In this document: piece after piece, positions 22,153 to 58,234 of the stretch
How positions within the stretch are numbered: the stretch's first letter is position 1
Layout: the number at the start of each line of letters is the position of its first letter
Source: Acholoe squamosa
Lineage: Eukaryota; Annelida; Polychaeta; Phyllodocida; Polynoidae
Direction of reading: 5' to 3'
Length of the DNA stretch: 64,000 nucleotides
Assembly: GCA_949317995.1 (NCBI GenBank)
Contig: OX439036.1
Location: 28,280,354-28,344,353 of the forward strand
The notes under the pieces: generated by a model
Seen by the model: the letters and a program-made list of their open reading frames with translations, nothing else
What the model was told of the DNA's origin: nothing
The model's database searches: none
Position numbers and translations under genes: made by a program

Positions 22153-22877
22153 TGGGCTGTGTGTGTTGTGTTTATATGTATATTAATGTGGTATAAGCTG
22201 TGTAGTTATTATCAGCTCGCTCCGCTGTTCTCACGTGTTTGGGAAGACTAACTCTAGTGGTATGATGTTGGCCTAGCCCATCCTTTTAACCAACACCAAG
22301 ACGCCGATACAAGTCACCATTTATTGTTCATTAGTTATTCACAGTTACAGTTGTTGATGAGTCCACTCATGGTTGTACAGCTTCAACGACATCAGTCTAT
22401 TCATACAAGCAGTTCATGTTTTAACAATCCGATGCTACTGGAGAGGTATGAGTGCCATAGAGATCCTGCTCAATCCGTTCTTACATTGGCTAAGTGTAAT
22501 ACTAAATATTAAACAGCTTCATCCTCGTCTACTCCAGGAGTATGTGTTGCCTCTTCGGCTGCTCCCACAATACTGACTCCTCCCTATCTCTTACCAACCC
22601 CTCACACCTTTCAGACGCCGGTGTTTGGCTCACCCGTATTCCCCCCTCCCCCTCTACAGAATCTACCTGACCAGATCTCGTCGACTCCCCTCCGTCTACA
22701 ACATTCCACAGCCTACCATAAACTCTTAGCTACCATAAACCCTATACAGGACTCCCATAGCACTCTCCCATATAGCATACAATAAATACACACATAATAC
22801 AGTATACAATAAATACCCACATAAGCGTACCCTGTTATACCCGTTCATTATAATTATTGGCTATTGATGACAAAACA
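22153..22877 (-). repeat. LTR (3' LTR of the minus-strand element)
   Basis: 725 bp, the same as 38524-39248 by eye. On the element strand it begins TGTTTTGTC and ends CAGCCCA. An AATAAA on the element strand at 22320-22325 is a likely polyadenylation signal. Read on the plus strand, the host gene's direction, the LTR also has AATAAA at 22781-22786 and 22809-22814. Confidence 0.93.
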
Positions 22878-23745
22878 GGTGCGGGCGCTCCCCTCTTGTG
22901 ACGCGAGTCACACCAATTGTCAAGCATAAATTATGCTTGAATACATCTTATGTATTGTTTTGTCACTAATACCTGAGGTAGTCATCATTATTATATTATA
23001 CATTTCAATATTTATTTATGTACATACATATGCAACACACTTATATAATACCATGCATTATTACTATATATATTTTCCACACTGCATTGGTGACTTATTC
23101 TTAGCGCAAACTTGTCCTCTAACATATACTTTATTATTACAATTCTCTCATTTCTTGATTCTCAATTTGTTTTTCTTTCCTTTGTTATTTATTTTACTCA
23201 TTCACTCGCCTTTACTAAGCACTTTGTCCCATTCTATGTTTATATATTCTTTTTTACTATCCTTACCCGGGAGTCGACACCAGTTACACCCAATCGGGCC
23301 AATAAATCTCCTTACATCTGTCAACCCCTTGTTCCGAAACGTTCCCCTCTATCTACCCTTTGCCCCAAGCATCACTCTAAAACACACTCTAACGCGTCTT
23401 GGGTTACACCTGGCAACCTCTTACTTAACTCACGCGTGCACAGCTTGTCAACGAGTATATACATCAGAAATCTTTTCACTTGCCACATTACGTCGTAGTT
23501 AGTGTCTCATTAATTGGTCGTACATTTAAATTACAGTTTCTTTTAGCTATATTATCTTACTTAATAATATACACTGGCACCATTCCCAGACATTATATCA
23601 ATTCATCTGTAGATCGTCTTTGTATTGTCTATTCCATCCTTTCGTCTCACGCCAGCTGCACGATATCTTTCTCCCCCCCCCCCTTTTCTTGTCCTGACAC
23701 CGTCTATGCCAAGTCTCTCTCATGATGGCGTTTTATTCATCACCT
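22878..23745 (-). other. 3' untranslated stretch of the retroelement with candidate PPT
   Basis: This is AT-rich DNA between the end of env and the 3' LTR. A purine run, AAGAGGGGAG on the element strand (22888-22897), is the best polypurine tract candidate. It is 10 bp from the LTR edge rather than abutting it. A plus-strand open frame at 22933-23502 is hydrophobic, AT-driven and has no recognisable motif, so I do not call it a gene. Confidence 0.45.
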
Positions 23746-26502
23746 TCAGTCTCTTTCATTCAGGTCCACGTACACCGATGACGATCCCGTCCTGGGCTCT
23801 TGACCTCGCAGAGCCACGTTCACCGACTCTTTATGACCCTTGTTTACTGAATATGAGACAGCCGTAGCCCCATATGATTCCCCAGGTACTTCTGGTAACT
23901 GTCTTGATCTTCTTAACTGAGCCATGGCTCTGGCATGGCCCGTGTCAGATAACTGATGTGTATTTATCTCTCTGTTCCTTATTGGTGTCCAGCCCGCAGC
24001 TGATATCATAGGTATCTCTAGTGGTACACCTGTCGCCAGGCCCCCACTATACCTAATCAATCTTGTCATCACCGTAAATCCATAGTCACCGTTCAGTATC
24101 CCTGCTAACTTCTTTGACACCTTCACAGTGGCCGGTAATGGCAATGGCACTGTGTTTTCCGCCGTTGCCATCTCAGTGGAATATAACACTCGACCCCACT
24201 GCACTGTAGCTATGTACTTCGGGCACGAATAGCTTATTGCTACGTCTCTAATAAGAGCCTGTTCTGCTGGTCTTTGAAATACCTGGTCCAAAGGCATTAG
24301 ACTCTCCCCCAATGGTATTATTTCTGTGATCTCTTTAGTTGCCACCTGTAGGTACAGTCCATCCACTGGTTGAAGCCTCTTTAGTTGTCGCACCTTCCTC
24401 ACCAGTAGCGCTATTATTATTATCAGCACTATCAATATCAATGATAACATAGCTATCGTCGTTTTGTGTTCCGGATCTTCTTCCTCATAATTACCTCCGA
24501 CATCCTCACCGTATTTTTCATAGTCCCAAGTTTCTAGACTCCTTATTCTCATAGGCATTCTTGCTAATATGTATGCCATTAATAGTCTTTTTAAACAAAA
24601 ATATTGTACCACCATCAGAGTCATGACAATCACCCCTGCAATCATTATTGGTGAATAATCCCATAGTGATTCAGTGGGAAAATGGCCTCCACCACTCATG
24701 CCATCCAAATCAGGCAATGCTGATCCGTCTTCCATTGCACTCACCAAATTCTTAAGATTGACAGCTGCTGGCGACTGTTGTATTCTAGCCTTGTGCTTCA
24801 TTTTGGTCTTTACTAATTTTGGCAACACTTCATCTTGCAATACCTCCACAGTTTCACCATTTAATACGGCCTTAATCCATGTCAATTTCTTAACACTGTT
24901 CATTTGTAGCAAATCGTTATTTACAAAAGTCACATTAGTTTCCATGTTCACATGACCACATCCTGCCAAGCTGTAAGGCATCCACGCCCCGGCAGTCATG
25001 AATGCGCAATCACACCCAATGTTCAATATGGCGTAATGATGCATGTTCACCTTAACAGGTGGGCTTGATTGACACATCAATTGACCTTGTATGTCGGGTC
25101 CCGATACCAAAGTACGACCCTTTCCCAGTGCTATCGCAAATGAAGGAAAATTTGGTTGCACTATATAGTTGATCTCACATGTTTCTGCTATGGCCACCTT
25201 GTCATTTCTTATTAGTGCCGCCATGCACCCTCGCTCGGCTATTTTTCTCATGTGTGGAATATCTGGGCATACTGCTATTGAGTTGCCATGGCAACGCGCC
25301 CAATTCACCACTGGCTCTGATATATAATACCGCCCATTCTTTGATATGGCTACTTCTGATGGCAATCCCTCTATTCTCGTCCCGTCAGCTTCTTTATTGG
25401 CCAGCCGCACTGGTACTGGAAACACCTTTACAGAGTATACACAAAATATGTGTTCCTCTGACACCACCGGAATCCTTATCTGCATCTTCACACGACCTTG
25501 GTGCTGATATACTCGCACCACACTATTATCATAGTAATATTCAGGATCAGTAAAAGCGACTCTAAATCGTGGGTACGTAGCCTTTAGATATACTTCAGTG
25601 TTGATTATAGCTTCTTTCAAATCTTCTCTAGTGACCAATTTTGATGATAGTTTTCTTCGTGATGCCAATCTTACCTCAGCTGCCATATCCTTTATCTCAA
25701 TGAGTTCATTTAATAAATGTATAATATACCCCCATTTGACCCTTGTCAGCAGGCTTTCATGGTTGTATACAATGGATAGTTCATATAATGCCACACTGTG
25801 CATAGTTTGAGTTCTTTCCAGCAATTTCCGTCTCTTCAATGATATCTTAGCCATTTCATACAATTGCAACTGTCTATCAGCCAACTCTCCCACTTCCGCC
25901 ATGACGTCCTCCAAGCCATTGCTAGTACTTGTGGCCAATGTTTTAATAACATCACGCATCTTATAATACGAAGTCTTCAGTAATTGAATATCCTTTTCAT
26001 TTCTGGCTACATCATCAGCTCTTCCAGTGCCAAAAATATAGTACGACAACTCTCCTATAATATTTAGACCTGGTATACCTGCTCTCTTAGACCTTTTGAC
26101 TTGTTGTTGTTCAGGTATGTTTTCCATCAGCTTTTCCACTTCCTCCTCTCTGGCCTGTATTAATTTTCTAATAATTTGATTCAACCATTCTTATTTCTGT
26201 TTGATGTTGTCACAGGTATCTTCAAATAATAAGGTTCTGTTATGATGTTGAATATCACACATAACCTGCATGTTCTTCACACATTGTTCATAAATACTTT
26301 CCATTTCCGGCTCTGGTAATCTATCTGGTATCTCTAATACAAACACTTGTGACACATGATTGTGCTCAGCTGTAGAAATACGTCTACCAGGTTGCAAAAT
26401 GACACCTAATTCGGCTCTCTCTAAAGTCTCGAAAGTGTGCCTTCCAGCATCTACCACACCCCACAAGGAACATAAGACACATAGTATAGTTAGCCACGCC
26501 AT
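23746..26502 (-). CDS. env: Envelope region, baculovirus F-like (errantivirus Env type)
   Basis: The likely start is the ATG at 26502 in good context. The product begins with a signal-peptide-like MAWLTILCVLCSLWGVVDAG. Further on come a furin-type site (KRSKR) and directly after it a fusion-peptide-like stretch with GLNIIGEL and IFGTGRADD. This matches the pattern of baculovirus F and insect errantivirus Env class I fusion proteins. Then follow a helical region, a cysteine-bearing ectodomain, a hydrophobic segment (MIAGVIVMTLMVV), a second one (LSLILIVLIIIIALLV) and a tail of about 200 residues. Such proteins mediate membrane fusion in the related viruses. The region reads almost throughout, with about one break, and is treated here as a fossil. 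Confidence 0.8.
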
Positions 26503-26914
26503 TTTCTTCTTATTATGGCTTCCGGTTACAATTCGAGTTGGGTTACTACGACTCCTAACTGATCGCTCCTGGAAGTTTTTATGGATCTTGAACACTTAAT
26601 AAGCCCTATCGTGTCAGATAGTTCACCAGTTCATGACCCTTTTACCCCTTCTTGTATATATTTCCCGTCAATCTGAACACGTGTGCCTTCCTCTCCTATC
26701 TATCTGTACGTCTCTTCCATCTGATAACACCAATTTATTGGATTTGGAGTCTTTGTCTCAGCGACTCCTCCTAATGTGCCCTCAATTTTTTTTTTTTTTT
26801 ACTATAGTTTTCACTATATTTTTGTTTTCTTATTTCAACTTCCCATCCCCTTGGTTAGATACCTAGAATTAAATTCTCAGTCGATGCTTGACTTCCACCC
26901 TGTTCGCACTGAAG
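26503..26914. other. Spacer between env and the opposite-strand frame
   Basis: This is the divergent interval between the env start (minus strand) and the antisense frame start (plus strand). It holds a run of about 14 T near 26790 and, on the plus strand, a pyrimidine-rich stretch ending AAATTCTCAG at 26880 that looks like a splice acceptor just upstream of the plus-strand ATG. It might hold a bidirectional promoter or spliced leaders. No coding domain is seen. Confidence 0.4.
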
Positions 26915-28168
26915 ATGGCTAGTTATTCCAGCGTTTCTGTCAATGGCGCACTCGTCTATCTCCCGATAGACCGTCTCCAGCCCGGTTTTACCTACATCGT
27001 CGGCTGCAGAGACCTCTCCTCCACAGATGCTAACGTTACTCCGTGCATGCTAGTATGCACCGGACCGCAAGGCGCGACCATGCCCTCACACACCACCATT
27101 CGCGATCATCTACGCTTAGCTTGTAACATGACGGACATGACACTGCGCGTCATCCACCTGGATGGGATGCCCGATCCCAGTTACCGCCTGCAATCAACTG
27201 CTGCTGTACCTCCTGTTCCTGCACCTGCTTATCGGCCTGCTTATGTCAACATCACACCTCCGTCTGTCAACTTGACCACCTCTTTCATGCCACCCTGGAA
27301 TCCTACACAGATGTCTCCCCTGGGTGCGCGTCCCACCTATAGCGCCATAGTGCCTGCTACCTCTACCTCAAGTGCGTCGCTCACCTTCACCTCCAATGTA
27401 CTGACTACTTCCTCTACAGTCCTGCCGCTAGTTGTGGATACCTCTTTCCAGTATCCACTTCCTGCTTCCTTCGCTGTTTCTTCTACTCCTCGTCCATTAG
27501 CACCTCAACATCACTCTTCATATGTGGATTACAGTGTACTTTCTCACACACCTGCTGCTTCCAGTGTTTCGTCCTTCTACCACTCACTTTTACTAGCCAC
27601 TACTGCACCACTGACATCCAGAACCACCCTATCTTCCAATCCCATTTATTCCACCGCGACTTCACATCACTTCTCCACCAGCACCACTACTTCCGGTCAG
27701 TTTCCTGCTGTATCCTCATTAAGAATGCCTCACATCACCACCCGAGCTGCTCCAGCTGTAGAGGCCCGCGCCACCTCGGCTTTTAGGTCTCCGCCTTCCT
27801 GCCTACATACGCCCGCTCTGGCCCTGACCTCTTCTACTTCCGGTCAGTTTACTTCATCTTCATCCACTGCAGCTTCACTTCCACACCTTCCAGTAATGTC
27901 GCCCTCGTTCTGGAGTACTCTGGCTATCTCACCTGGACATCCACCCTTCTCACCATTGACCTGTCAGTCCAGCACCATGGCCTCTTCCTCACGACTGACT
28001 CACAGTTCTTCTACCATCATATCTCTCTTGACATCTTCATCTGCTACCACTACGCGACATCATCCCTATCAGCTTTCTGCCAGACCACAAGCCTCCCGTT
28101 CTTCTAATCTTGGAGGTCCTATCCTTCCAACATTGGCTTCCCCAGCTTCTACCCTCTCGCAGAAGTAA
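26915..28168 (+). CDS. Antisense gene inside the retroelement (Ser/Thr/Pro-rich protein)
   Basis: A 417-codon frame from an ATG in good context (GAAGATGG), running opposite to gag, pol and env. Residues 1 to about 92 have mixed, domain-like composition with four cysteines and many aliphatic residues, and no family I recognise. The remainder is rich in Ser, Thr, Pro and Ala with little charge. I see no minus-strand frame of any length across this interval, so it is not a shadow of a sense gene. A donor-like GTAAGTAT overlaps the end of the frame (28165) and acceptor-like sites follow at 28749 and 28964, so the transcript may be spliced further. Antisense genes are known in some retroviruses (HTLV-1 HBZ) but I know of none in this family. 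The function is unknown. Confidence 0.65.
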   Translation: MASYSSVSVNGALVYLPIDRLQPGFTYIVGCRDLSSTDANVTPCMLVCTGPQGATMPSHTTIRDHLRLACNMTDMTLRVIHLDGMPDPSYRLQSTAAVPPVPAPAYRPAYVNITPPSVNLTTSFMPPWNPTQMSPLGARPTYSAIVPATSTSSASLTFTSNVLTTSSTVLPLVVDTSFQYPLPASFAVSSTPRPLAPQHHSSYVDYSVLSHTPAASSVSSFYHSLLLATTAPLTSRTTLSSNPIYSTATSHHFSTSTTTSGQFPAVSSLRMPHITTRAAPAVEARATSAFRSPPSCLHTPALALTSSTSGQFTSSSSTAASLPHLPVMSPSFWSTLAISPGHPPFSPLTCQSSTMASSSRLTHSSSTIISLLTSSSATTTRHHPYQLSARPQASRSSNLGGPILPTLASPASTLSQK

Positions 28169-29379
28169 GTATATTTCCCTAGTGATTCATACTTTGATTC
28201 CTAGAGACGCTCACTTCGTTCTTGTAATAAGATACTATACACATATTTTCTTTTAAAATATATGCATAAGCTAACTCTATAAAGTCGCTGAGCTCCTCTG
28301 ATTTGTGAGTAGTGGCGATCACATTCACATTCCCAGGTGTATAACTAATCTCATTAATACACCCATATGGCTGAATTTTATGTGTCCTAATACCTTCTTA
28401 GAAAAGAATTTCACTCACACTTATTTTTGAATATATATCTACAGCTATAGACATCGTATTTCCTTTCTCAGAGTCTGGGCCTCTTAAATAATTAAACCAT
28501 TATAGGCTCTGGTTCTTTAACAGAATGCCTTACTTCTGGACAAATATATCCTTTAAATTTAGGCCTCTTAATTATGGACCTTGTTACTGGAGTCATTCTA
28601 TGTGTGTCGCGACTGTGGTCCTGCTGGTTCCGACTAGTGTTTCCATTCACCCTTAGACAACTTATAAGGTGCCCCATAGTGGTTGCCTCCTGTATGTGAT
28701 GCACTTCTTTCTCTTTATCTCATATACCTGCTTTATTTACTATCTTCAGTTCTTCTCCTGCTTCATCTGCTGATGATGATGATGCCTCTACTCCTTCTAG
28801 TCCTTAAATCTTCACTTCAGGTATGTATTTCTAATATGTTTTATATTAAATGCATCCTAAATGGATCCGACCTTTTACAATTTTCCACAGACTGTATTAA
28901 GTATTTAAGTCTTATCCATAGAGTAGGGTGTATTTGAGCCTTAATATCTCTACCCTCTCTACAGTGGGCGATGATTCCTTTCCTTCAGTAATTTATTACT
29001 GATCTCCATTAATTCATCTCAACCGCTATGAACCTTCCGTTGTCTATGATCCAGGCTTTTCCACTAGAACTCATGTTTATAGCTTATCTAAACTGCTGAT
29101 TATGTTGTCTTGTCTTGGTTATGTCCGCGTAGCATGCTAGTTGTTCTATCTTGTTAAACTTTTGAGTGTAGTCTGTATCTATTGCTTGCCGATGTCTGTA
29201 CAGCTGGAGTTCCACTCCTATACTGCCAACTGTCTTGCTTGTCATTGCATCTTATCTCTTTCTTTACCTGCGCATGTCTGCTCTCTTCCCCCCCCCTCTT
29301 CTGTTACTAGGCTGTTAATATACATATGTCTGTCTCAGTGTCCGACACTTCCCCCCCCCCCCTTTTCTCACTCACGTGT
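28169..29379. other. Interval with plus-strand splice-like signals, no clear gene
   Basis: On the plus strand there is a strong acceptor-like TTTACTATCTTCAG ending at 28749, a donor-like GTATGTAT at 28821, and another acceptor-like CCTCTCTACAG ending at 28964. These suggest small exons of the antisense transcript. A 70-codon minus-strand frame near 28492-28704 has no ATG start or known motif. Runs of C lie near 29290 and 29350. Confidence 0.35.
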
Positions 29380-29721
29380 TCATTCCCCCGCTGGCTCTGT
29401 TTCCGCGCCGTCATTCTCGCGCTGTCTTTTCTGTCTCTTTCCTCCTGTACCCCATTCTTTCCATGCATCTGGAGCTGCAAATACTGCCATGGTTATTTGC
29501 TGTATCTTCCATGCAGTATTCTTACTTTCCTCAGGTAATTTCCTGACCCAAGTTTTCACTTCACCTTTCATTCCCCACAATAATAATGCCACATATTCCA
29601 TTTCCCCTAGATCATATATTCTCTTAATCAGATCCATGTCGTAGAAATATTCTTCTATCTTTTCTCCTGGTGCTCCTCTAAATGTAGGTGGCGTTATACT
29701 GATACCTGCCATTTTGTACAT
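29380..29721 (-). CDS. Second, small capsid-like protein of the retroelement
   Basis: A 113-codon frame with an ATG. Over about 72 residues it aligns almost without gaps to the N-terminal capsid part of the element's own gag. Shared features are P-x-F-x-G-x-PGE, a YF pair, a G-x-K-x-W-like core, PE-x-x-K-x-T and a final VF. About a fifth to a quarter of positions are identical by eye. It then ends in a short basic tail (GGKRQKRQR). Lacking the C-terminal capsid half and zinc knuckle, it could interfere with or modulate particle assembly, or be a relic of an internal duplication. The role is inferred, while the similarity is seen directly. Confidence 0.65.
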   Translation of the reverse strand: MYKMAGISITPPTFRGAPGEKIEEYFYDMDLIKRIYDLGEMEYVALLLWGMKGEVKTWVRKLPEESKNTAWKIQQITMAVFAAPDAWKEWGTGGKRQKRQRENDGAETEPAGE

Positions 29722-29811
29722 TTCTTCAACCTCTCACAACGTTCCCCTAACAGGTATTGTATTTCATAACTGTACAGTCCCTCTGTTCTCTCCTATCAAC
29801 TCATATCCTTT

Positions 29812-30297
29812 CTAGTTATATTTATCAAAGTCTTCAGTTACATCCTCCTCCTCCAGGGTCGTCTCATTGTCTTTAACCCCGGATGTTAATACTCCTTGGG
29901 TGATATGCTTTCCCTTTTGCTTCAGTTTAAACATTTCCCAAGTTTCGTCTCTTTGTCTACACTGCCTGCATCGTTTCCCTCTACTAGTCTTGCGATGCCT
30001 CCTACACTTTCTTGAGAAAAAGAATGCATTAGTCACACTCCCTACTCCATATTTAAAGTGATGTCTGTTTACTTGTTCTCTCAGATATCTTGGCAATCTC
30101 GCGATGTCCAATTTTAGTTTTGATATTTTCTGCATTACTATATCCTGTAACGTCGCCCCATTGTATCTGAATACCTTCGGCAATGAATATTCAAATCCAT
30201 ATATAGCATCCAGCGCGTCTTCTACCTGTTGTCCCCTATATCTCCCTGCCTTTACTATAGATGGTGCTCTCTTTCCCGCATCCTCACTAGTGGACAT
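29812..30297 (-). CDS. Arg/Lys-rich accessory protein of the retroelement
   Basis: A 161-residue frame from the ATG at 30297, whose A is also the last base of the stop of the upstream zinc-finger frame (TAATG). The same frame is open further upstream without an ATG. The N-terminal two thirds is mixed. Around residues 95-130 it has a strongly basic stretch with cysteines (RKCRRHRK, then GKRCRQCRQR), like a nuclear-localisation or RNA-binding region. The C-terminus is acidic (TTLEEEDVTEDFD). No family is recognised. A Rev/Tat/Rex-like regulatory role is a guess from composition and position only. Confidence 0.55.
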   Translation of the reverse strand: MSTSEDAGKRAPSIVKAGRYRGQQVEDALDAIYGFEYSLPKVFRYNGATLQDIVMQKISKLKLDIARLPRYLREQVNRHHFKYGVGSVTNAFFFSRKCRRHRKTSRGKRCRQCRQRDETWEMFKLKQKGKHITQGVLTSGVKDNETTLEEEDVTEDFDKYN

Positions 30298-30884
30298 TAT
30301 ATGAGATGTTTTATCCCATGTACCTGTTCCAGGTGTTTGGCCGCTCCTGCCGCTGTTGCTGTTGTTCTGCCACAAATGTGACAGAGCCTTGATGTCACTT
30401 GTCTTCTGCTGTAATACTCTTCTATCAATATGTCATCCAATCTGATTGATGTATCCAGCACAAATTCATCGTCTTTACTATAAAATATTGATGGTTCTGT
30501 CTGTGTCGCTGTTTCTGTGGTCTGAGTCTCTCTCTTAATTATACCACCAGTGCCTTGTAGAGTGGCATCCAACAGCCACTCCCATTCTGTCTGTCCCACG
30601 GTGATGTCACGTATGCTATCCCATATGTTTCCCTGATGATTTACCAGGACCTCGGCTTGAGCTGCTTCCACCACCTGTATTGGCTCTTGCGCTGAGCTTG
30701 GTTGGCCTGACGTTGAAGTCGCACCAAATCCTTTTTCATTTGTTTCTGTTGTTGTTGAACTTGCTGCAGACACTGTGCTCCTTTCATTGTAAGTGCTATT
30801 GCAATAGTTGTCTTGAATCATCCACGTATTATAGTATTGTTGGTATTGCTGTTCTCCAACACTATCGTACCAGCTATCTGCCAT
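30297..30884 (-). CDS. C2H2 zinc-finger accessory protein of the retroelement
   Basis: A 195-residue frame with an ATG in good context (CGGATGG). The N-terminus is rich in Tyr, Gln, Ser and Thr, followed by an acidic middle with a Thr/Glu-Thr stretch (TQTTETATQTEP). Near the C-terminus is one C2H2 finger, LCHICGRTTATAAGAAKHLE then QVHG, with a C-x2-C ... H-x4-H arrangement. Its stop overlaps the ATG of the next frame by one base (TAATG), a layout used for termination-reinitiation in influenza B M and in some retroelements. Single C2H2 fingers can bind DNA, RNA or protein, and the target is unknown. I know of no standard gene of this kind in Ty3/gypsy elements. Confidence 0.65.
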   Translation of the reverse strand: MADSWYDSVGEQQYQQYYNTWMIQDNYCNSTYNERSTVSAASSTTTETNEKGFGATSTSGQPSSAQEPIQVVEAAQAEVLVNHQGNIWDSIRDITVGQTEWEWLLDATLQGTGGIIKRETQTTETATQTEPSIFYSKDDEFVLDTSIRLDDILIEEYYSRRQVTSRLCHICGRTTATAAGAAKHLEQVHGIKHLI

Positions 30885-31213
30885 CCGTCCATCAGCACCT
30901 GCTATTTACTGTGAGGTCTTATCTCGTCCCTCGTTGTGCGCGCACTGCCACATCCTGATGCATCTCCTCCTGCATATACCTGTTGCGCTGGTCTCCCCCC
31001 CTCCCCTCTTTTCCTACCTTGCCCTACTTTTCCCTTTTCTTTGTGTATCGCCCTCCTTTCCGTCTACCTGCATGAGTCAGCTTGACCTGCTCCTCCGGGC
31101 GGCCCCTCCCCCTTCGGCACCTGCATAACCCCCCCCCCCTTTTTCCCTCATAGCAACACACGTCCATACTACAGGATTATCGCCCACCCTGTAGTATTCC
31201 GTCTAAGCTCACC
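30885..31213 (-). other. Spacer between pol and the zinc-finger frame
   Basis: About 330 bp with no minus-strand frame of note. It contains C-runs near 31131 and pyrimidine-rich plus-strand text. On the element strand it would be the leader of the accessory genes, for example a splice acceptor region, but no acceptor stands out. Confidence 0.35.
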
Positions 31214-34200
31214 CTATTCTCCATCGCTGGATGAGCTGAGCTCCTCTCTGCCTCTCCTGTGATGCTTACAAATCGGTCCCTTTGGAATGATATGTTCACT
31301 GCTAGATTCCTCACTCATAATAGCCCCTGCAGCCAATTGCGCCCTCCTATCTCTTTGCCTCCGTCTTCTCTCAGCCCTATCCTCTCTCTCTTTTCTTTTC
31401 TGCCTTCTCTCCATTTCTTCTCTCTCTCTTTCCTCGTCCATCTGTCTCTTCACCTCGACATTTCTCACTCTACCCTTCCTTTTCTCTTCATTATCCTGTC
31501 TTCGGCCACCCTCGACCTTATCAATATCACTATCCTGTAACCCTTTCTTTTTACACCAATTATCGACCACAGCTTCCTGCCTGTGCTTCTCCCGGCTATC
31601 TCGCCGTACAACTCCATCTTTCTCATTATCAGATTCCTGTATAGGTGCGCGCGGTCCAGCTCCGGCCACCTCTCTCTTTTTCTCATGTGCACTTCTATCG
31701 TCGTCTGACGTTTTCAATTTGTCCTCCTTATCAGCGCCCGCTAGCGCTGTATCCTCCAGACCAGATGAAGGATGTTCTACCTCAGTCACCCCTTTAGGGT
31801 CCTCACGTCTTATATCCTGTATTTCCACTTCTGGTTCCACTTCTGTTCTATCCACTTCCACAGTCCTCTCATCTTTGGCTACTCCTTCGTCATTTTCACC
31901 CTCCCCTTTGTATGCTCTCTTCAGCTTATTCACATTTACCAAGTGAGGTATCTCTTTGCCCGTCTTCACTGCTCTCAACCTCACCCTGTTATCCCCCACC
32001 ACCTCTATTATCCTATGTGGCCCCGTGTATCTACCAGCAAACTTCGATGTGTTATTCACCGCGCATCTCGGATCATAGTAATATACCCACTCCCCCTCTA
32101 TAAAAGATACAGGTCGAGCCCGTCCATCCAATCTACGTCTGAGCTGCTCCTCATACCTAGCAGTATGAGCGTTGGCCGCCTCCTGTAACAACTGTATGCT
32201 ATGATTGGTCCTTATAAACCAATCTCTCTCAGATGGCACTTTAGGCAGTGGCCTTTCCTCAGCAAAGGACATAGCCACTGGATCCCTCCCGAATTGTAGT
32301 GCATATGGTGAAAACCCCGTCCTCATACTAATATTTGAGCGCACCGTCCACAATGCAATGGGTAACAGCTCTGGCCAGTGTTCATGGTCCTCGGTCACAT
32401 AGCATCCTATCGTATCCTCTAATGATTTATGCAATCTTTCAACCCTGGCATTTCCGGTCGGATTCCTAGAAGACGTAAACCTCTGTTTGGTTGATAGTCT
32501 AGCTGTAACCTCACGAAAAACCTGACCCATATATGTAGACCCTCTGTCACTGCACAGCACTTCCACCTTGCCGTACCTACACACGATCTCCCGTAGAAAC
32601 ACCCCAGCTGCCGTGTGCGCAGTTGTGTCTTTAGTACAGAATGCCTCCGGCCATCCCGTCAGCAGGTCTATGAAGGTCATAATATATTTATAACCTTCTT
32701 TGGACCTACGTAGTGGCCCAACAAAATCTGTCTGTATCACTTGCCATGGATAATCCGGTGTATCCCATGATCTTGCCTTGGCCCTAAAGTGAGGTGCTCT
32801 TTTTCTCAACGCGCACCTTTCACATAGCCGCACGTATCTAGCTATGTCCACCATCATATTTTTCCAATAAAACCTAGCCTGTACTTTTGTATTTAGCGCC
32901 ACTGTTCCCACATGTCCTCCGCACATGATATCATCATGCATGAGATAGAGCACTCTATTCACCATAGCCTTAGGCACCACTATCCTTGGGTTTAGGTCAG
33001 CTATAGGCTCACCCCTCTTTCTAGCTGGTTTTATATACTTGCATAACAATCCATCTTTCATACCCATGAAATCAGCATTATGTAAAATCCCTCGCGCCTT
33101 TTCCTCATCCACTGGCAATTCATCTCCCGCCAAATATCTCATCATCCCCCTGCAGAATCCATCCTTCCACTGCTCCTGAATGAAGGTTTCCCTATCCAAT
33201 TCCTCCCCTACAAGTTCCATCACGAGTAACTCACATCCCACCTCAGGCTCAAACTCCCCCGACTCCTCGCCAGGTGTATCCTGTCCCACTGCCAACGGCA
33301 CTCTGGATATAAAATCCGGCAGGTAGTGAGTGGCTCCCGGCTCATACCTGATCTCATAGTCAAAGTCAGTCATTGCTAAACCCCATCTAGTCAACCTTTT
33401 GGATGGAGCCTTACTGGCTTGCTGAAGCAAAGGTATTAATGGTTGATGGTCTGTTATTATCGTAATCTTAGCTCCCGTCAACATATCCTCAAATTTCTTC
33501 AATACTCTTATAACAGCTAGGCCTTCTTTCTCTGTTATAGTGTAGTTTCTTTCAGCCTTTGTAAATGTATACCCATAATATGTTACCGGTCTCAGCAATC
33601 CATCCCTCTTTACACAGATGGCCGCTCCACACGCGCCATCCGAAGCATCCGTTAAAACATAAAAGTGGCCTCCAATCTCTGGGTGAACCAATAACGGTGT
33701 GCTCGCTAATGCTGCTTGTATTTTCTTGAATGACACCTCACACTCATCCGTCCACTTAAATGGCACCTTAATTTTCAACAAATTATTCAGAGGCATCGAC
33801 AAAACAGCATAGTTAGGAATAAAACTCCTGTAATAATTACAAAGCCCCAGAAAGGATCTAGTTGTATGTTCATTATACGGTCTACCAAATTCCTGCACCT
33901 TTCTGATCACTTTAGACTGTGTCTGCACTCCTTCAGCATTAATAATGTGCCCCAAAAACTTGATTTCCGCTTTGCCCCACTCACATTTTTCTGGCTTGAC
34001 TGTTAAACCTGCTTTACCTAAAGCTGCCAATACTCTGCCAACATTAGTAATATGGTTGTCCACATCCGGATCAAAGATAATAATATCGTCTAGGTAGGCT
34101 AAACAAGTACGTGGTATTAAGCCTCCTAGTGCTAATGACATAATCTTAGTAAATTGCCATGGGCTCTGCTTCATACCAAACGGCATCCTCGTCCATTGCC

Positions 34201-35590
34201 AAACTCCCGAGGGTGATTCAAATGCTGAATATTGCCTGCTGTCATGATGTAAATCGCACTGATGATACCCACTGAGCAAATCCATGGCTGTAAAGATTAT
34301 AGGTTTTCTGTATGCCATATACAAAAACATGCTTCTGGCTGTGGGCATAGGGTATGTATCATCCGCCGTAATAAGATTCAACATGCGATAGTCTGTACAT
34401 AATCTAGCCTTGCCATCCTTCTTCTGCACTACCACCAACGGACTTCTCCAGACGCTGTCACTGGGCTCAATAATTCCCAACTTTAATAATTCCCTCACCT
34501 GTTCATCAATAATATCCATTTTCTGAGGAGAATACCTGTATGGTCGCGCCATACACGGACCTTTGGACTCATCGACCCTTATTTTCATTGGAGCCAATGA
34601 ACAATGACCCAACTCCTTCATAGAAAATGCTATAGTGTCCATGTTGACCACCAGCATTTCTCTGAATACCCTCTGCTCTTCCGGCGTCATCATAGTGTCA
34701 CCCAAATCAAGGCCCCTGATCTTCTCAATTTTATCCAGCCTCTCCTGCTCACTTAAGGTAGAAACACCACATCCACCACCATTGTCCTGAGGATCCTGCC
34801 GGTGCTTTGACCCTCCCCTAGCATCTTGACCATTCTCCCGCCGGTCTTCATTACATCGTGCCAAAATCTCACGAGCCTCATCCTTTCTATCCCTGCCAAC
34901 ATTAGCTGTATCAATTACCTCCAGCAAATTAAGTTCTGGTTCATCTATGTCTTCTGTATATGCTATAACCTCAGTTGTATCCACATACACTTGCCTGTCA
35001 GAGAGATTAGCAATTCTCATATACCATTTCTTCCCCACATAGTTCACCGCACCATCCGCAGCTACCACCGCCAAATTAGATGGTCTCAACAAGACCGTTG
35101 TTCCAACCCTTTCAGCCGCAACATCCCATCCTTTCACCGTCACCAATCTTTCCTCCCATGGGTCCAAAATCGCCGCTACTTCAATTGAGACCGGATCCTC
35201 AGTAAAGAGACGCACCTTTCCATCTATAGCTATAATCTGTGCCCTTGCGTCAATCAGAAAATTACGCCCCAGCACAATATCATAAGCCAGTGAATCCACC
35301 ACATTAAAATCATAGTATATGCAAGCACCATCCATAAAACACTGCAGTCGCACCGTCTCATAAACTTGTAATGATGTTTTGTCCCCCAGACGCACCTTCC
35401 CCAATTGAGATGGCTGCCTGTCCCAAATTGCTGTCTCACTTATACTACTCACAACTGTCCGTGCTATAAAACAATCAGACGCACCCGTGTCCACTAAACA
35501 TCTGTATGTATTCTCGTCAATAGTACACTGAACCAACCATGGCGTTTTGTCTTTTGATCCCCTGTTTCCCGACCCATCCCCTGATATCAA
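31214..35590 (-). CDS. pol: Pol: protease, reverse transcriptase, RNase H, integrase
   Basis: About 1,458 residues, read in the -1 frame relative to gag and overlapping its end slightly. Gag-Pol would therefore be made by the -1 ribosomal frameshift known in errantiviruses. In order there is a retropepsin with DTGA (about 34) and a later ILGRN-type flap (DIVLGRN, about 104); an RT with TAMDLLSGYHQ, MPFGMKQSP and YLDD (about 499); RNase H with LTDASDGACGAA (about 646) and TDHQPL; an integrase with an HHCC finger (H885 to C926), DDE residues near 955, 1015 and 1051, and a GPY/F-like module (YTGPHRI, about 1188). After about 1225 comes a highly charged 230-residue tail with no chromodomain. The integrase-last order marks it as Ty3/gypsy. 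It looks whole. Confidence 0.95.
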   Translation of the reverse strand: MISGDGSGNRGSKDKTPWLVQCTIDENTYRCLVDTGASDCFIARTVVSSISETAIWDRQPSQLGKVRLGDKTSLQVYETVRLQCFMDGACIYYDFNVVDSLAYDIVLGRNFLIDARAQIIAIDGKVRLFTEDPVSIEVAAILDPWEERLVTVKGWDVAAERVGTTVLLRPSNLAVVAADGAVNYVGKKWYMRIANLSDRQVYVDTTEVIAYTEDIDEPELNLLEVIDTANVGRDRKDEAREILARCNEDRRENGQDARGGSKHRQDPQDNGGGCGVSTLSEQERLDKIEKIRGLDLGDTMMTPEEQRVFREMLVVNMDTIAFSMKELGHCSLAPMKIRVDESKGPCMARPYRYSPQKMDIIDEQVRELLKLGIIEPSDSVWRSPLVVVQKKDGKARLCTDYRMLNLITADDTYPMPTARSMFLYMAYRKPIIFTAMDLLSGYHQCDLHHDSRQYSAFESPSGVWQWTRMPFGMKQSPWQFTKIMSLALGGLIPRTCLAYLDDIIIFDPDVDNHITNVGRVLAALGKAGLTVKPEKCEWGKAEIKFLGHIINAEGVQTQSKVIRKVQEFGRPYNEHTTRSFLGLCNYYRSFIPNYAVLSMPLNNLLKIKVPFKWTDECEVSFKKIQAALASTPLLVHPEIGGHFYVLTDASDGACGAAICVKRDGLLRPVTYYGYTFTKAERNYTITEKEGLAVIRVLKKFEDMLTGAKITIITDHQPLIPLLQQASKAPSKRLTRWGLAMTDFDYEIRYEPGATHYLPDFISRVPLAVGQDTPGEESGEFEPEVGCELLVMELVGEELDRETFIQEQWKDGFCRGMMRYLAGDELPVDEEKARGILHNADFMGMKDGLLCKYIKPARKRGEPIADLNPRIVVPKAMVNRVLYLMHDDIMCGGHVGTVALNTKVQARFYWKNMMVDIARYVRLCERCALRKRAPHFRAKARSWDTPDYPWQVIQTDFVGPLRRSKEGYKYIMTFIDLLTGWPEAFCTKDTTAHTAAGVFLREIVCRYGKVEVLCSDRGSTYMGQVFREVTARLSTKQRFTSSRNPTGNARVERLHKSLEDTIGCYVTEDHEHWPELLPIALWTVRSNISMRTGFSPYALQFGRDPVAMSFAEERPLPKVPSERDWFIRTNHSIQLLQEAANAHTARYEEQLRRRLDGRARPVSFIEGEWVYYYDPRCAVNNTSKFAGRYTGPHRIIEVVGDNRVRLRAVKTGKEIPHLVNVNKLKRAYKGEGENDEGVAKDERTVEVDRTEVEPEVEIQDIRREDPKGVTEVEHPSSGLEDTALAGADKEDKLKTSDDDRSAHEKKREVAGAGPRAPIQESDNEKDGVVRRDSREKHRQEAVVDNWCKKKGLQDSDIDKVEGGRRQDNEEKRKGRVRNVEVKRQMDEEREREEMERRQKRKEREDRAERRRRQRDRRAQLAAGAIMSEESSSEHIIPKGPICKHHRRGREELSSSSDGE

Positions 35591-35592
35591 AT

Positions 35593-38484
35593 TTAATTCT
35601 GGGGTAGGAATGAGCCGTTGTGCCCGTTTCCCAGCCTGCGAACATCATTTCCCTGATCTCGTTGGTCTCTGTTCTGCTGAGAGGATGACAACTGATCCCT
35701 GTATTTCTTCAAAAACGTGCACTCCTCTGTAGAATGTGTAGTAGAGTCATGAATCAAACAATAGATCGCCCCTCCCCCTTTCTGACTCTCTCCTGCATCT
35801 CCCATCATCCTAGCATATTCCTGTGCTCTTCTCTGACCTTTATCATCCCCCTGTTGACCCTGCCTGCTTCCTCCTGTGTATCTCTGTCCTTGAAACCTGT
35901 TATTGAAATACTGAGACGCGTTATATTGATTTCCACCGCGTCCCCCTTGATAATTCCATCCTCGACCTCCACCGCCTGTACCAAACTGCCTATTCTGACC
36001 ATATGTTCCCGCGCCGGTCCCTCTGCCCGCCTGCGCCTGATACTGCCCTTGTGAGTGACCACCCCTTCCAGCATATTGTCCCTGCTGATTCTCCCGTCCA
36101 TGTTCCATTTCTCTGAGCCCCCGTCTATATTCCATAGTACACATCTCCACCACTGCTTTACTTTGTTCCCTAGCGTACTCTTTAGGATCGAATTGATCGT
36201 CCCCACATTTTCCATCTCGAGTCCCCTCAGACTCTAGCATGTGTAACTGCGCCACACCTTTGGAGTTCCTTCCTTTCTCCACATTTTCCCAATAAGACGC
36301 CAGTCTGAGAGCCTCTTCAAAAGAATCAGCATTGTGTTTCATCAGGTCCTTATCAATGGGCGGAAGCAAACCCCCCACAAAGACTGACAGTTTGATGACA
36401 TCAGGAACGTCCAACTCGTCATATTCCTTTATTTTCAATGCAAAGTCCCAAACCGACTGTCCCTTTTCCTGCTTCAGACAGTGCAAATCCCTATGTTTCT
36501 GCCACAGTGGCCTTTTGTCTTCAAAAACCCTCTTCACTATAGCCACTACTTTGTCCAAAGTATCCTTTTCCCCCTCTGGAATACCATCCATCCATTTCGA
36601 TGCCCCCTTCTTCAAGCCCAATTTTGCATACTCAAGATGTTGATCCGGAGACCATCCAAATAGCTTTTGCATTCCATTCAATTCCTTGAAATATCTCCGA
36701 TAATCCTCCCCAGGCTCCCCATTGAAGGATGGTAGTTTAACATTCGGACTAGGCGCCATGTCGTCGTCTTCAAAACCAATAATAGGTGCAATATCCTCCT
36801 CCACCTGTTTCTCCGCATCCAAATCACCCACTGAGCTCTCTTCACTATCGTTCCCCTGTACACCAGTTCCAACACCTCCAGCTACGGAGCCCTCGGCGGC
36901 TTCCTCCCGGGCCTCCCTTTCTATCTGTCGTCTTCTCTCTTCATCCGCTCTCCGAACCCACCAATCCTCCCAGTCACCCGAAACATCAGTCTGAAGATGG
37001 CCATTTAGAACATCATCTAAATGCCCCTCATCTGTAGTACGACCTGTACTATTGCCTGAGCGGATATTCGCAGTTACCTTCCTCCAATTTACTGTGTCGC
37101 TCAAAAACCTCTTCCTTCGTGCTACGCGCTCCCGTTCTATCTCCGGCCCCGCGAGCAGCTCCTCCCCATCAATGGCCTGCCGATATATTTGCTCCCGTTC
37201 CAATAGAGCCCTCCCCCTCTCTATACTTTGTCGTACCCTAATATTAGTGTTCTGCAGACCTGTAATAACTTCATCCACCCTTGTTTTACTCACAGACTCT
37301 CCCAGACGACTGCCACTTTGATCACCTGTAATGACCGGTGTAGTACAGCTTGTCCGATCCTGTCCAACTCCACCATTCTCATCCTGACCCACCAAGTCTT
37401 TATCACTTAACTCTCTCCCATTCTCAACAACCACCAAGAAACCAGACGGTAGCAATCCTGCACTCCCCCCTTGTGAATCATCACAGGCCTCCGACCCCTG
37501 TTCCTGTATCTTCTCACCGACGTCCTTGCTTTGTCCTGACACTGCCGCCACTGTAGACGCCCCGTCTACTGGATCATTCTCCCCATGTGCGTCCCCCTCA
37601 TTCTCATGACTATCCTTTGTTCCACTCTCATCCACCTGTCCGTCTTCATGTACTGGCTCAATTAACCCCAATGACGTTGCAATTGCTTCAAAATTCAAAT
37701 CCTCATCACCAATATCCGCCACATCCCCCTCAGATGCGCGTCTGATTCGTCCCTGGTCCGCTGTACCCTCAAACTCAAGGCACCTAGGAGTAGCCTTACA
37801 GAAATTAATACTGGAGCTCCTAGCAATGGGCGTCGAAAAATACTTATAATTCACTAATCTGTCTCCTGTCGTCCATCCCTTGCAGAGATTATCAGGCCGT
37901 TCCCCTGCATCGGCACTTACTGTGTGCTCCTGAACCGCCGCCTGTTGCCCATCACTAGAAATATCAGCCCTGGTCTCCGACTCTGCCGCAGATGACTGAT
38001 GCTCGTTCTCCACCCCCAATGCTGAGAATGGTCCAGAGGTACCGTCCACTACCACCGACCCCGCTGGTTCAGAATCAGCCGCAGTAGACAATTGTAGGCC
38101 AGACGTCCCCCCAGACTTGGGATCCCTTTGAGACGACGCCCGCTCCTCCTCTGACCGAGCCACGGGGAATCCAATCTCTCTAGACACCTCCTCTCCAGGC
38201 AAAAGCACCACTTGCGACCTGGGTCCTAATTGCACATGCACATGTGTGTGATCCGATCTAAGAGTGACACGTGATTGATCAGGTCCCGCTTCACTCACTC
38301 CGGATCTTCCACCCTGTCCCTCTGCTACACCACTATGTGCTACTGCTGCATTCCCAGGCAACGTGCGCGCTGCAGGTATGATAGTATAGACTTCCACACC
38401 GTCACTACTGTCAGTGTGTGGCGATGCCGCTGAGTCACATCCAGCGTCTGAGCTGCTAGGTATCGGGTACGGCGAGCCGCTCAT
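35593..38484 (-). CDS. gag: Gag with a very long N-terminal extension
   Basis: I place the start at the ATG at 38484 (MSGSPYPIP). The frame is open slightly upstream, without an ATG, to the primer site. The product is about 963 residues. The first 570 or so are acidic and rich in Ser, Gly, Glu and Asp, with a charged helical stretch near 505-535 and no recognised domain. A retrotransposon capsid region follows (about 580-740), starting LPSFNGEPGE and with a KGASKWMDGIPEGEK core. Next comes a Gly/Gln/Arg-rich nucleocapsid-like part (about 795-890) and a single C-x2-H-x4-H-x4-C zinc knuckle (CLIHDSTTHSTEEC). Gag in this family is normally 400-500 residues, so the N-terminal half is unusual. It looks whole. 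Confidence 0.9.
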   Translation of the reverse strand: MSGSPYPIPSSSDAGCDSAASPHTDSSDGVEVYTIIPAARTLPGNAAVAHSGVAEGQGGRSGVSEAGPDQSRVTLRSDHTHVHVQLGPRSQVVLLPGEEVSREIGFPVARSEEERASSQRDPKSGGTSGLQLSTAADSEPAGSVVVDGTSGPFSALGVENEHQSSAAESETRADISSDGQQAAVQEHTVSADAGERPDNLCKGWTTGDRLVNYKYFSTPIARSSSINFCKATPRCLEFEGTADQGRIRRASEGDVADIGDEDLNFEAIATSLGLIEPVHEDGQVDESGTKDSHENEGDAHGENDPVDGASTVAAVSGQSKDVGEKIQEQGSEACDDSQGGSAGLLPSGFLVVVENGRELSDKDLVGQDENGGVGQDRTSCTTPVITGDQSGSRLGESVSKTRVDEVITGLQNTNIRVRQSIERGRALLEREQIYRQAIDGEELLAGPEIERERVARRKRFLSDTVNWRKVTANIRSGNSTGRTTDEGHLDDVLNGHLQTDVSGDWEDWWVRRADEERRRQIEREAREEAAEGSVAGGVGTGVQGNDSEESSVGDLDAEKQVEEDIAPIIGFEDDDMAPSPNVKLPSFNGEPGEDYRRYFKELNGMQKLFGWSPDQHLEYAKLGLKKGASKWMDGIPEGEKDTLDKVVAIVKRVFEDKRPLWQKHRDLHCLKQEKGQSVWDFALKIKEYDELDVPDVIKLSVFVGGLLPPIDKDLMKHNADSFEEALRLASYWENVEKGRNSKGVAQLHMLESEGTRDGKCGDDQFDPKEYAREQSKAVVEMCTMEYRRGLREMEHGRENQQGQYAGRGGHSQGQYQAQAGRGTGAGTYGQNRQFGTGGGGRGWNYQGGRGGNQYNASQYFNNRFQGQRYTGGSRQGQQGDDKGQRRAQEYARMMGDAGESQKGGGAIYCLIHDSTTHSTEECTFLKKYRDQLSSSQQNRDQRDQGNDVRRLGNGHNGSFLPQN

Positions 38485-38507
38485 CAGTACAATGATAAGC
38501 CCAACCA

Positions 38508-38521
38508 CTAATTCTCCACCA
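38508..38521 (-). promoter_or_regulatory. Candidate tRNA primer binding site
   Basis: On the element strand TGGTGGAGAATTAG begins 2 bp after the 5' LTR, the position and TGG start expected for a site pairing with a tRNA 3' end (CCA). I cannot name the tRNA. The gag ATG lies only about 40 bp from the LTR edge, so the leader outside the LTR is very short. Confidence 0.6.
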
Positions 38522-38523
38522 TC

Positions 38524-39248
38524 TGGGCTGTGTGTGTTGTGTTTATATGTATATTAATGTGGTATAAGCTGTGTAGTTATTATCAGCTCGCTCCGCTGTT
38601 CTCACGTGTTTGGGAAGACTAACTCTAGTGGTATGATGTTGGCCTAGCCCATCCTTTTAACCAACACCAAGACGCCGATACAAGTCACCATTTATTGTTC
38701 ATTAGTTATTCACAGTTACAGTTGTTGATGAGTCCACTCATGGTTGTACAGCTTCAACGACATCAGTCTATTCATACAAGCAGTTCATGTTTTAACAATC
38801 CGATGCTACTGGAGAGGTATGAGTGCCATAGAGATCCTGCTCAATCCGTTCTTACATTGGCTAAGTGTAATACTAAATATTAAACAGCTTCATCCTCGTC
38901 TACTCCAGGAGTATGTGTTGCCTCTTCGGCTGCTCCCACAATACTGACTCCTCCCTATCTCTTACCAACCCCTCACACCTTTCAGACGCCGGTGTTTGGC
39001 TCACCCGTATTCCCCCCTCCCCCTCTACAGAATCTACCTGACCAGATCTCGTCGACTCCCCTCCGTCTACAACATTCCACAGCCTACCATAAACTCTTAG
39101 CTACCATAAACCCTATACAGGACTCCCATAGCACTCTCCCATATAGCATACAATAAATACACACATAATACAGTATACAATAAATACCCACATAAGCGTA
39201 CCCTGTTATACCCGTTCATTATAATTATTGGCTATTGATGACAAAACA
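38524..39248 (-). repeat. LTR (5' LTR of the minus-strand element)
   Basis: A 725-bp copy of the left LTR, with the same length, ends and internal text where compared, including the two plus-strand AATAAA motifs. Element transcription should start within it and run towards lower coordinates. I do not mark a TATA box because several AT-rich candidates exist. Confidence 0.93.
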
Positions 39249-39264
39249 ATGTCATGATGCATTG
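39249..39264 (+). repeat. Target duplication and minisatellite remnant
   Basis: ATGT (39249-39252) is the right copy of the target duplication. CATGATGCATTG follows, the continuation of the 38-bp unit interrupted at 22152. The text then leaves the minisatellite. Confidence 0.8.
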
Positions 39265-39560
39265 TCAGCAAATATGTCAGTAATAATGCACTATTTGTCA
39301 GCAATTAGTCAATTTATGTTATTAATTGCTCATTATTGGTCAGCAGTTCATCAACATATGTCAGTAATCACTCACTATTTGTCAATATCTGATTGAATAT
39401 TGAAAATTGAATTGAAAATAGCATTGAAAATTGCATTAAACACTCGGGTCTTTTAGGTCTTAGACCTAACCTGCTCCATCTTGTCAGTATCTAGTCAACA
39501 TTTCTCAGCAATTAGTCAATATATGTCAGTAATTACTCACTATTTGTCAGCATTTAGTTA
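39265..39560 (+). repeat. Degenerate TCAGTAAT / TTTGTCAGCA repeats
   Basis: Short motifs such as ATGTCAGTAAT, CTCACTATTTGTCA and GTCAGCA(A/T)TTAGTCAA recur at about 39283, 39355 and 39520, giving a loose repeat of varying length. It lies within the unit with inverted ends. No coding potential. Confidence 0.5.
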
Positions 39561-39749
39561 TAGCATAGTTTAGCATAGCACATAGAACACAGTTGACCAT
39601 AGGTATCTTAGGGCTGTGCCCTAGCCTTAACCATTTTATTAGCTGACCTAATTCTAATCATTGAAAATGATCTTGTAGGTCATTGAAAAGACCTTTAGCA
39701 TAAGAACTTGTAGAATATACAATACAAATATGTTTTTCTCATAATTCTA

Positions 39750-58147: not shown

Positions 58148-58234
58148 TGCATACCGCTCTCTGTTTCGACAATATATGAACAACGTATGATTTTAAAATG
58201 TTTAGGACTTTAATCAGTTTCTTTTCTTCTTCAG

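Follow-up and report, generated by a model that had tools for sequence, protein, structure and literature searches.

An env-bearing Ty3/gypsy provirus family with four recurrent extra reading frames between pol and env in Acholoe squamosa

The stretch of 64,000 nucleotides analysed here (the window) harbors on its minus strand, between positions 22153 and 39248, an env-bearing Ty3/gypsy provirus of 17.1 kb (Table 1). Matching 725-bp LTRs and a 4-bp target duplication had been described in an earlier note and are borne out, with no mismatch between the LTRs and ATGT on both sides; TG...CA ends and a duplication within the 4- to 6-bp range are those of Ty3/gypsy elements. Matching 4-bp duplications also flank 19/19 testable other copies, 13 of which have identical LTR pairs (maximum difference 3 in 723), in agreement with the young age attributed to the element on the identity of its own LTRs. 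Troyka elements, which have a 3-bp duplication and CG...CG ends according to the excerpt of PMC12440569, were considered and set aside on both features. The seven flanking ORFs gave no Pfam match, and a bacterial-type promoter scan gave nothing usable (7 found versus 5.2 expected).

Table 1. Features of the provirus and its target duplications (positions in the window).
Feature	Position	Strand	Remarks
5' LTR	38524..39248	-	725 bp, TG...CA; 0 mismatches against 3' LTR
3' LTR	22153..22877	-	725 bp; 0 mismatches against 5' LTR; ends read
Target duplication, element's 5' side	39249..39252		ATGT
Target duplication, element's 3' side	22149..22152		ATGT
gag	35593..38508	-	ORF listed from GTG; first in-frame ATG at 38484 (by eye)
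GGGAAAC	35626..35632	-	candidate -1 slippery heptamer in gag frame, inside gag/pol overlap
pol	31214..35644	-	-1 frame; protease-like, RT, RNase H, integrase, charged tail
ORF-A	30297..30884	-	195 aa; one C-terminal CX2CX12HX4H finger-like motif (by eye)
ORF-B	29812..30297	-	161 aa; arginine-rich patch; ATG overlaps ORF-A stop (TAATG)
ORF-C	29380..29721	-	113 aa; truncated paralogue of element's own capsid region, basic tail
Antisense ORF	26915..28168	+	417 aa from ATG; near-invariant N-terminal domain; S/T/P-rich variable middle
Intergenic stretch, antisense ORF/env	26599..26887		289 bp, antisense ORF and env point away from each other; candidate regulatory or antisense promoter region
env, N-terminal part	26191..26595	-	up to premature stop; first in-frame ATG at 26502 (by eye)
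env, remainder	23746..26190	-	RSKR cleavage-like site, putative F-like ectodomain, membrane spans (by eye)

The gag frame is open from 38553 to 35593 and uninterrupted in the window and 4/4 other copies, with pN/pS values of 0.44, 0.11, and 0.06 in its three parts. The context of the heptamer GGGAAAC is likewise unchanged in the window and 4/4 other copies, and its sequence suggests that it may work as a -1 slippage site. According to Pfam, pol encodes RT, RNase H, H2C2, and integrase domains. Its three parts are open in the window and 4/4 others (pN/pS 0.23, 0.04, and 0.04), and its tail is open in 18/21 copies (pN/pS 0.28).

The order RT-RNase H-integrase is that of Ty3/gypsy elements (Metaviridae). 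Among solved structures, the best relative of pol is Ty3 Gag-Pol (E 2.7e-92), compared with E 1.1e-31 for foamy virus Pr125Pol and 1.5e-27 for the next Gag-Pol entry; on this sequence score, the RT appears nearer to Ty3 than to retroviral RTs. There is only one RNase H region, and the second, retroviral RNase H domain of Retroviridae is absent from pol. Domain order, the single RNase H region, and the best solved relative thus uphold the Ty3/gypsy assignment proposed earlier. Relatives of pol at 65-69% identity exist, and the tree, based on a sample holding no named errantivirus, contains a 13-row clade of relatives (100/100) with P0007 as its sister (99/97). IMG/VR and GTDB contigs contain only distant gypsy-type pols (29-31% identity), and a single-sequence search of these contigs gave no relatives.

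All three of gag, pol, and env were correctly recognized in the earlier note, which overlooked that env, a single frame, is split by one premature stop in the window copy. The pN/pS values of its two parts are 0.13 and 0.03, with 12 missense or stop changes among 30 relative to the window in part 1 (20.8 expected) and 26 among 190 in part 2 (134.2 expected), where the mean difference is 1.7%. Part 2 matches P0029 at residues 1989-2282 with 23% over 322 columns (E 2e-9 in a single comparison). Baculo_F (PF12259) is listed for P0029 as a whole, and a direct Pfam search with env gave no PF12259 match.

Between pol and env (31213-26596) lie the sense frames ORF-A, ORF-B, and ORF-C and one antisense ORF, so that the at least three extra sense frames and one antisense frame claimed beforehand have all been located. 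The block is complete and colinear in 20/20 other copies from the same 1.48-Gb genome, which were chosen by a 100% ORF-C match, and is 95.8-98.4% identical. ORF-A is open in 20 and ORF-B in all of these 21 copies, window included. Purifying selection acts in the frames' own reading, with pN/pS values of 0.06 for ORF-A, 0.11 for ORF-B, and 0.31 for the antisense ORF; missense or stop changes relative to the window number 8/35 in ORF-A (24.0 expected) and 12/42 in ORF-B (27.8 expected). Shared third positions are expected to lower the ratio in the mirrored frame of the opposite strand as well, where it is 0.37 opposite the antisense ORF and 0.13 opposite ORF-B; stops alone separate the mirrored frames, being many in the first case and few in the second. 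ORF-A, ORF-B, and the antisense ORF, three of the four, are constrained as proteins, free of the bias in copy choice; together with the presence of the block in 20/20 copies, this bears out the complex gene content. Pfam returned weak matches only for the extra frames, that of ORF-A being zf-C2H2 at E 0.31, and a comparison of ORF-B with solved structures gave nothing usable.

The antisense ORF is open in 21/21 copies, where it measures either 1251 or 1254 nt, and its frame spans 431-434 codons in 147 of the 150 matches scored out of 280, window included. No other feature in the 3' half of the element varies as much as this ORF, whose middle is mosaic. Residues 1-78 have accumulated 29 silent changes and 1 missense change (missense or stop 1/30, 19.4 expected; pN/pS 0.01). 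Missense or stop changes relative to the window amount to 31/71 in residues 79-150 (50.2 expected) and 61/115 in residues 151-250 (77.6 expected), with pN of 0.056-0.063 and pS of 0.16-0.22 over residues 79-250. Residues 251-300 are under no constraint (23 missense among 32 classified changes, 23.2 expected; pN/pS 1.15), and residues 301-417 are borderline (12/24, 16.3 expected, P 0.05). As an open antisense frame under constraint, it resembles HBZ and gene23. The searches returned no relative at E <= 1, one of them weakened by low-complexity words, and the protein may therefore be private to the element family. Solved structures offered nothing usable, and an AlphaFold model of the N-terminus was too poor to use (mean pLDDT 50). 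The adjoining intergenic stretch is the least variable of four non-coding stretches (mean pairwise difference 0.97% versus 2.2, 2.3, and 3.0%), and it could have a regulatory or antisense promoter function.

Rather than being regulatory, the antisense protein might act on the host, for example as a defence antagonist, with its middle varying through an arms race. The variable middle, whose deep allele differences over residues 79-250 are unlike env, would suit such a role, but pN/pS lies below 1 outside residues 251-300, and so much silent divergence is better accounted for by an exchange of old alleles than by single-residue selection alone; we consider this explanation rather unlikely.

ORF-C aligns with residues 593-662 of the gag ORF (27% over 70 aa, E 5e-9). 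Its protein is identical and stop-free in 150/150 scored genome matches including the window (of 1134 first-look candidates), and 14/14 differences within the window and the 20 copies are silent, a perfect conservation that is biased because these copies were picked by their 100% ORF-C match. In 2000 dinucleotide shuffles of positions 26600-31213, minus-strand frames never reach 206 codons, reach 202 in 0.05%, and reach 117 in 9%; its length is therefore no argument for ORF-C, which is supported by homology and recurrence. Such an unexceptional length, an identity to its own gag of only 27%, and the copy selection are what might be expected of a passive, non-working remnant left by partial duplication of gag or by recombination with a different element. 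This origin is nevertheless improbable, given the identical protein encoded at 150 scored places and, with the bias stated, the wholly silent differences; a frame that has diverged far from gag while its copies agree is unlike a decaying relic. Solved structures gave nothing usable for ORF-C, and its AlphaFold model (mean pLDDT 48) was too poor to use.

The antisense ORF could also be a by-product of a pyrimidine-rich and stop-poor plus strand, hitchhiking in a young family. Long plus-strand frames do come with this composition (shuffle mean 148 codons), the young age restricts decay, and residues 251-417 are under little or no constraint. However, 0/2000 shuffles reach 431 codons (largest 354), the frame stays open in every copy despite the highest variability in the 3' half, and the changes in residues 1-78 are almost all silent, which makes this explanation very improbable. 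All three opposing minus-strand frames are full of stops, and the ORF is therefore no shadow of a sense gene. Shuffles, stops, and change counts together reject a composition artefact for residues 1-250, but not for residues 251-300. Finally, a private insertion or capture in the window copy alone, for which no evidence was found, is already refuted: copies devoid of the 26.9-31.2 kb block would have pointed to it according to the earlier note, but the colinear block is present in each of the 20 other copies, 19 of which have two LTRs and are flanked by matching target duplications of their own, and the start pattern of the antisense gene has 211 genome matches including the window (reversed control, 0).

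We thus favor, with a probability of about 0.88, a family of Ty3/gypsy endogenous retroviruses that bears env, was active recently, and acquired a complex-retrovirus gene plan independently. LTRs, env, and the four extra frames recur across copies, and purifying selection acts on the core genes as well as on ORF-A, ORF-B, and the antisense ORF. The copies are mosaics of one another, with visible blocks; L011, L026, and L030 are the copies closest to the window when the pol tail is compared (0.99-1.42%) and the most distant from it when the antisense ORF is compared (13.0-13.6%). Recurrence, selection, and the Ty3-type pol support the proposal that complex-retrovirus-like content arose here in a different lineage.

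Complex retroviruses, such as lentiviruses and deltaretroviruses, carry several small genes besides gag, pol, and env, deltaretroviral HBZ being antisense. The element shares with them several small genes, one of them antisense, but differs by its pol lineage, its single RNase H, and the location of the extra genes before env, and no sequence relation was found. With several accessory genes under selection, it works like a member of the Retroviridae without being one. Insect errantiviruses (gypsy, ZAM) and metazoan env-bearing gypsy elements are similar in Ty3/gypsy pol order, LTRs, and young copies, and probably also in an F-like env after pol; unlike them, this element reaches 17.1 kb and has four additional genes, three sense and one antisense, located between pol and env. 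The view that env-bearing gypsy elements usually have only gag, pol, and env has to be qualified by extra ORFs in plant, fungal, and rotifer elements and by the CERV of Cer1. Cer1 belongs to Ty3/gypsy. In C. elegans, its CERV is a non-env protein encoded downstream of pol and required for genomic RNA export; the excerpt of PMC10309623 describes one spliced protein sharing gag exons, from an ORF unlike env, whereas four separate frames and an env are found here. Bdelloid rotifer elements, in the excerpt of PMC5408684, share captured ORFs after pol, with one ORF3 of esterase, exonuclease, or env-like type instead of env plus four. Excerpts of PMC7264820 and PMC11963269, the latter also mentioning HBZ, describe LTR elements of plants and fungi with additional ORFs in antisense orientation (Grande gene23, RIRE2, Retand, Boty), the Grande gene having its own promoter and a nuclear product. 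For Retand, they report a TRP28 domain and no env-type sense ORF, whereas this element has env, no TRP28 (Pfam), measured selection, and a hypervariable middle. Ty1 makes p22, a small Gag-derived protein (excerpt of PMC4599808); ORF-C is also small and Gag-derived but is a separate, diverged gene, not identical to its own Gag part. Extra genes may also be reported in the survey of env-bearing gypsy elements by Chary and Hayashi 2025, as cited in the excerpt of PMC13172572.

As to expression, an LTR transcript would yield Gag and, through slippage at GGGAAAC, Gag-Pol, and spliced RNAs would yield env and ORF-A/B, with ORF-B translated by termination-reinitiation at TAATG. ORF-B, arginine-rich, and ORF-A, with its zinc-finger-like motif, might regulate element RNA or transcription like Rev/Tat-type factors, and ORF-C, a second capsid-like fragment, could modulate or block Gag assembly. 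The antisense gene would be transcribed from a promoter in 26599-26915, its product being a regulator or host-interaction protein whose activity is held by the constant domain and whose variable middle is exchanged through recombination. Tentatively, this may amount to a second independent complex-retrovirus plan, with ORF-A/B as an RNA-export or transactivator pair, ORF-C as a capsid-domain autoregulator, and an antisense protein combining a fixed domain with a reshuffled variable region. If so, the element would concentrate its variation in an accessory protein encoded antisense rather than in env, and this variation would be reshuffled among co-replicating copies.

Discussions of accessory and antisense genes usually present them as innovations of complex retroviruses in vertebrates or as curiosities of plant elements. 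Here, four extra frames occur in an env-bearing gypsy family, three of them under selection and the fourth homologous to the family's own gag. Both the gene for the capsid fragment and the antisense gene with its variable middle are amenable to single-protein cell assays. The 211 matches, mostly very recent among dated copies, constitute a natural data set on accessory-gene gain, which bears on the steps (RNA export, assembly control, or host evasion) that drive the acquisition of extra genes.

The extra block between pol and env of this env-bearing Ty3/gypsy provirus is most probably a selected set of accessory genes, a reading to which we give a probability of about 0.88. The alternative of a private insertion or capture, under which other copies of the family would lack the block, is ruled out. 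Twenty other copies were fetched from the own genome as 10-kb 3' halves, representing every one of the 13 contigs in which ORF-C matches were listed; all 20 span window positions 22153-31921 with at most 3 bases missing at one end and 95.8-98.4% identity. A search of this genome (1.48 Gb, 63 contigs) with ORF-C as the protein query gave 1134 first-look candidates, and all 150 that were scored, the window's own included, were identical and stop-free. Residues 1-100 of the antisense ORF gave 150 scored matches of 280 candidates, with no stop in the query part; the frame runs for 431-434 codons in 147 of these and for 413, 293 and 160 in the other three. The antisense start has 211 matching places at up to 3 mismatches, against 0 for a reversed control.

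Features of the element and its surroundings (window positions)
Feature	Position	Strand	Length
Whole element	39248 down to 22153	-	17,096 bp
ORF-A	30884-30297	-	
ORF-B	30297-29812	-	
ORF-C	29721-29380	-	
Antisense ORF	26915-28168	+	
env part 1	26595-26191	-	
env part 2	26190-23746	-	
G runs between genes	about 31140-31130, 29365-29285, 23685-23670	coding	
38-bp tandem array	20436-22150		
CUB-type exon by look; no Pfam match	58180-58641	+	
Repetitive-looking frames; minisatellite-like by eye	60339-61268	both	

Selection was assessed in 21 copies, the 20 fetched and the window. ORF-B, ORF-C and the antisense ORF are open in all 21 and ORF-A in 20, with own-frame pN/pS of 0.06 (ORF-A), 0.11 (ORF-B), 0.31 (antisense ORF) and 0.00 (ORF-C), the last biased because copies were picked by 100% ORF-C identity. 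A low ratio is also found in one of the five remaining frames of each ORF, namely its mirror frame (e.g. antisense ORF 0.37, ORF-B 0.13), as expected from shared third positions; the frame mirrored to the antisense ORF is full of stops. The strand asymmetry across the whole element is strong (GC skew -0.20 to -0.38 on the plus strand over 22001-40000), and this purine-rich coding strand is part of the reason for chance-long plus-strand frames. Each observed change was weighed by randomisation, being re-placed with the window letters as context and missense or stop outcomes counted; as the sequences are related and recombining, the P values are guides rather than exact probabilities. Such changes numbered 8 against 24.0 expected in ORF-A and 12 against 27.8 in ORF-B. 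Along the antisense ORF there were 1 against 19.4 in residues 1-78, 31 against 50.2 in 79-150, and 61 against 77.6 in 151-250 (P 0.0003; one 'stop' counted here is an artefact of single-base changes and is carried by no copy). No deficit was seen in residues 251-300 (23 against 23.2), and that in 301-417 is borderline (12 against 16.3, P 0.05). The extra sense frames and the antisense frame of the earlier note are confirmed and its interpretation is supported, with constraint on ORF-A, ORF-B and residues 1-250 of the antisense ORF.

The antisense ORF is the most divergent of eleven 3'-half stretches compared (mean pairwise 5.4%, largest 13.6%), the excess lying in its nucleotides 200-900. Residues 1-78 are near-invariant, yet silent sites there differ by 12%. 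The middle of the gene holds a few deep alleles in mosaic: four copies (L015, L016, L024, L025) are of window type at residues 101-124 and of the other type from about 151. Distances also conflict between regions: in the pol tail L011, L026 and L030 are the copies nearest the window, and in the antisense ORF they are the farthest from it. Such a pattern would be expected from template switching between different packaged RNAs; alternatively, it could stem from gene conversion among copies. The 289 bp between the antisense start and env, the least variable of four non-coding stretches measured (0.97%), may be a candidate promoter region. Variation is locally very high in the stretch after ORF-C, which holds two G runs, reaching 7.6% over the first 100 columns.

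Sequence features suggest what the sense genes might do, although confidence in any single function assigned to an extra gene is low. At its C terminus ORF-A has one C2H2-like motif, recognised by eye (Pfam E 0.31). The ATG of ORF-B overlaps the ORF-A stop (TAATG), and its product has an arginine-rich stretch with a leucine-rich, putatively export-like stretch upstream (both by eye); the two could form a transcription or RNA-export pair. ORF-C terminates in a basic tail and may be a capsid-related modulator. Over 70 aa it is 27% identical to residues 593-662 of the gag ORF in the same element (E 5e-9, from one pairwise comparison), a segment that we interpret as the N-terminal part of the capsid; Pfam gave no capsid match. 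Two predicted structure models were of insufficient quality to be used.

The gag and pol genes overlap, with pol in the -1 frame and a GGGAAAC heptamer in the gag frame 30 bases upstream of the gag stop codon. Pol reads RT, RNase H, H2C2 and integrase, and among solved structures its closest match is the Ty3 Gag-Pol polyprotein. In the window and 4 other copies all three parts of each gene are open, with pN/pS of 0.44, 0.11 and 0.06 (gag) and 0.23, 0.04 and 0.04 (pol); the pol tail gives 0.28 in 21 copies. A search of 5.8 billion proteins returned 43 RT-integrase relatives among the 7985 best word-sharing candidates, and 11 of these (P0001-P0011), encoded on contigs of 6-17 kb, cover 99-100% of the query at 65-69% identity. 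In a 42-row tree (P0041 and P0042 excluded) from a sample without a named errantivirus, the window is sister to the relative P0007 (99/97) within a 13-row clade (100/100). Gypsy-type sequences were also seen in a contig assigned to a Rickettsiales MAG (JALZUV010000217.1; RT-integrase, 29%), perhaps as foreign DNA in the bin, and in a 9,984-bp IMG/VR contig (IMGVR_UViG_3300006001_000003; pol, 31%).

The earlier note's gag and pol are present; its env needs correction, being divided in the window copy by a single premature in-frame stop. Env part 2 aligns with the end of P0029, a relative whose listed domains include Baculo_F, which supports a putatively F-like reading, while the Pfam Baculo_F model did not match this env. 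The stop is absent from all 20 other copies, so the defect is private to the window copy and open env copies exist: 19 of the 20 keep an uninterrupted frame between the ATG and the final or penultimate codon (3 of them with a stop only upstream of the ATG), and L011 carries a frame-shifting length change. Across 21 copies env pN/pS is 0.13 (part 1) and 0.03 (part 2).

The element is young, as had been proposed. Its 725-bp LTRs are identical in the window copy, and a duplicated ATGT flanks both ends. Among the 19 of 20 other copies in which a 5' LTR was located, all have matching 4-bp duplications, varied in sequence between copies, and 13 have identical LTR pairs (maximum difference 3 of 723). 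Copy L013 has no LTR at the expected 5' position, through truncation or insertion in that copy; the 951 bases there match nothing in the window. The element adjoins the tandem array (detected by computation, junctions read by eye), which continues into its 3' flank by eye, so that the insertion struck the array's last unit or edge.

In the literature searched, with subscription papers largely outside it, no animal gypsy element came up that has an env together with accessory genes on both strands for which selection had been measured, which is not proof of absence. Antisense extra ORFs are described in plant and fungal LTR elements (PMC7264820, PMC11963269), an RNA-export protein is known from Cer1 (PMC10309623) and a Gag-derived inhibitor from Ty1 (PMC4599808). 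Each part has precedent; what looks new is that one env-bearing gypsy family combines them, with selection demonstrated.
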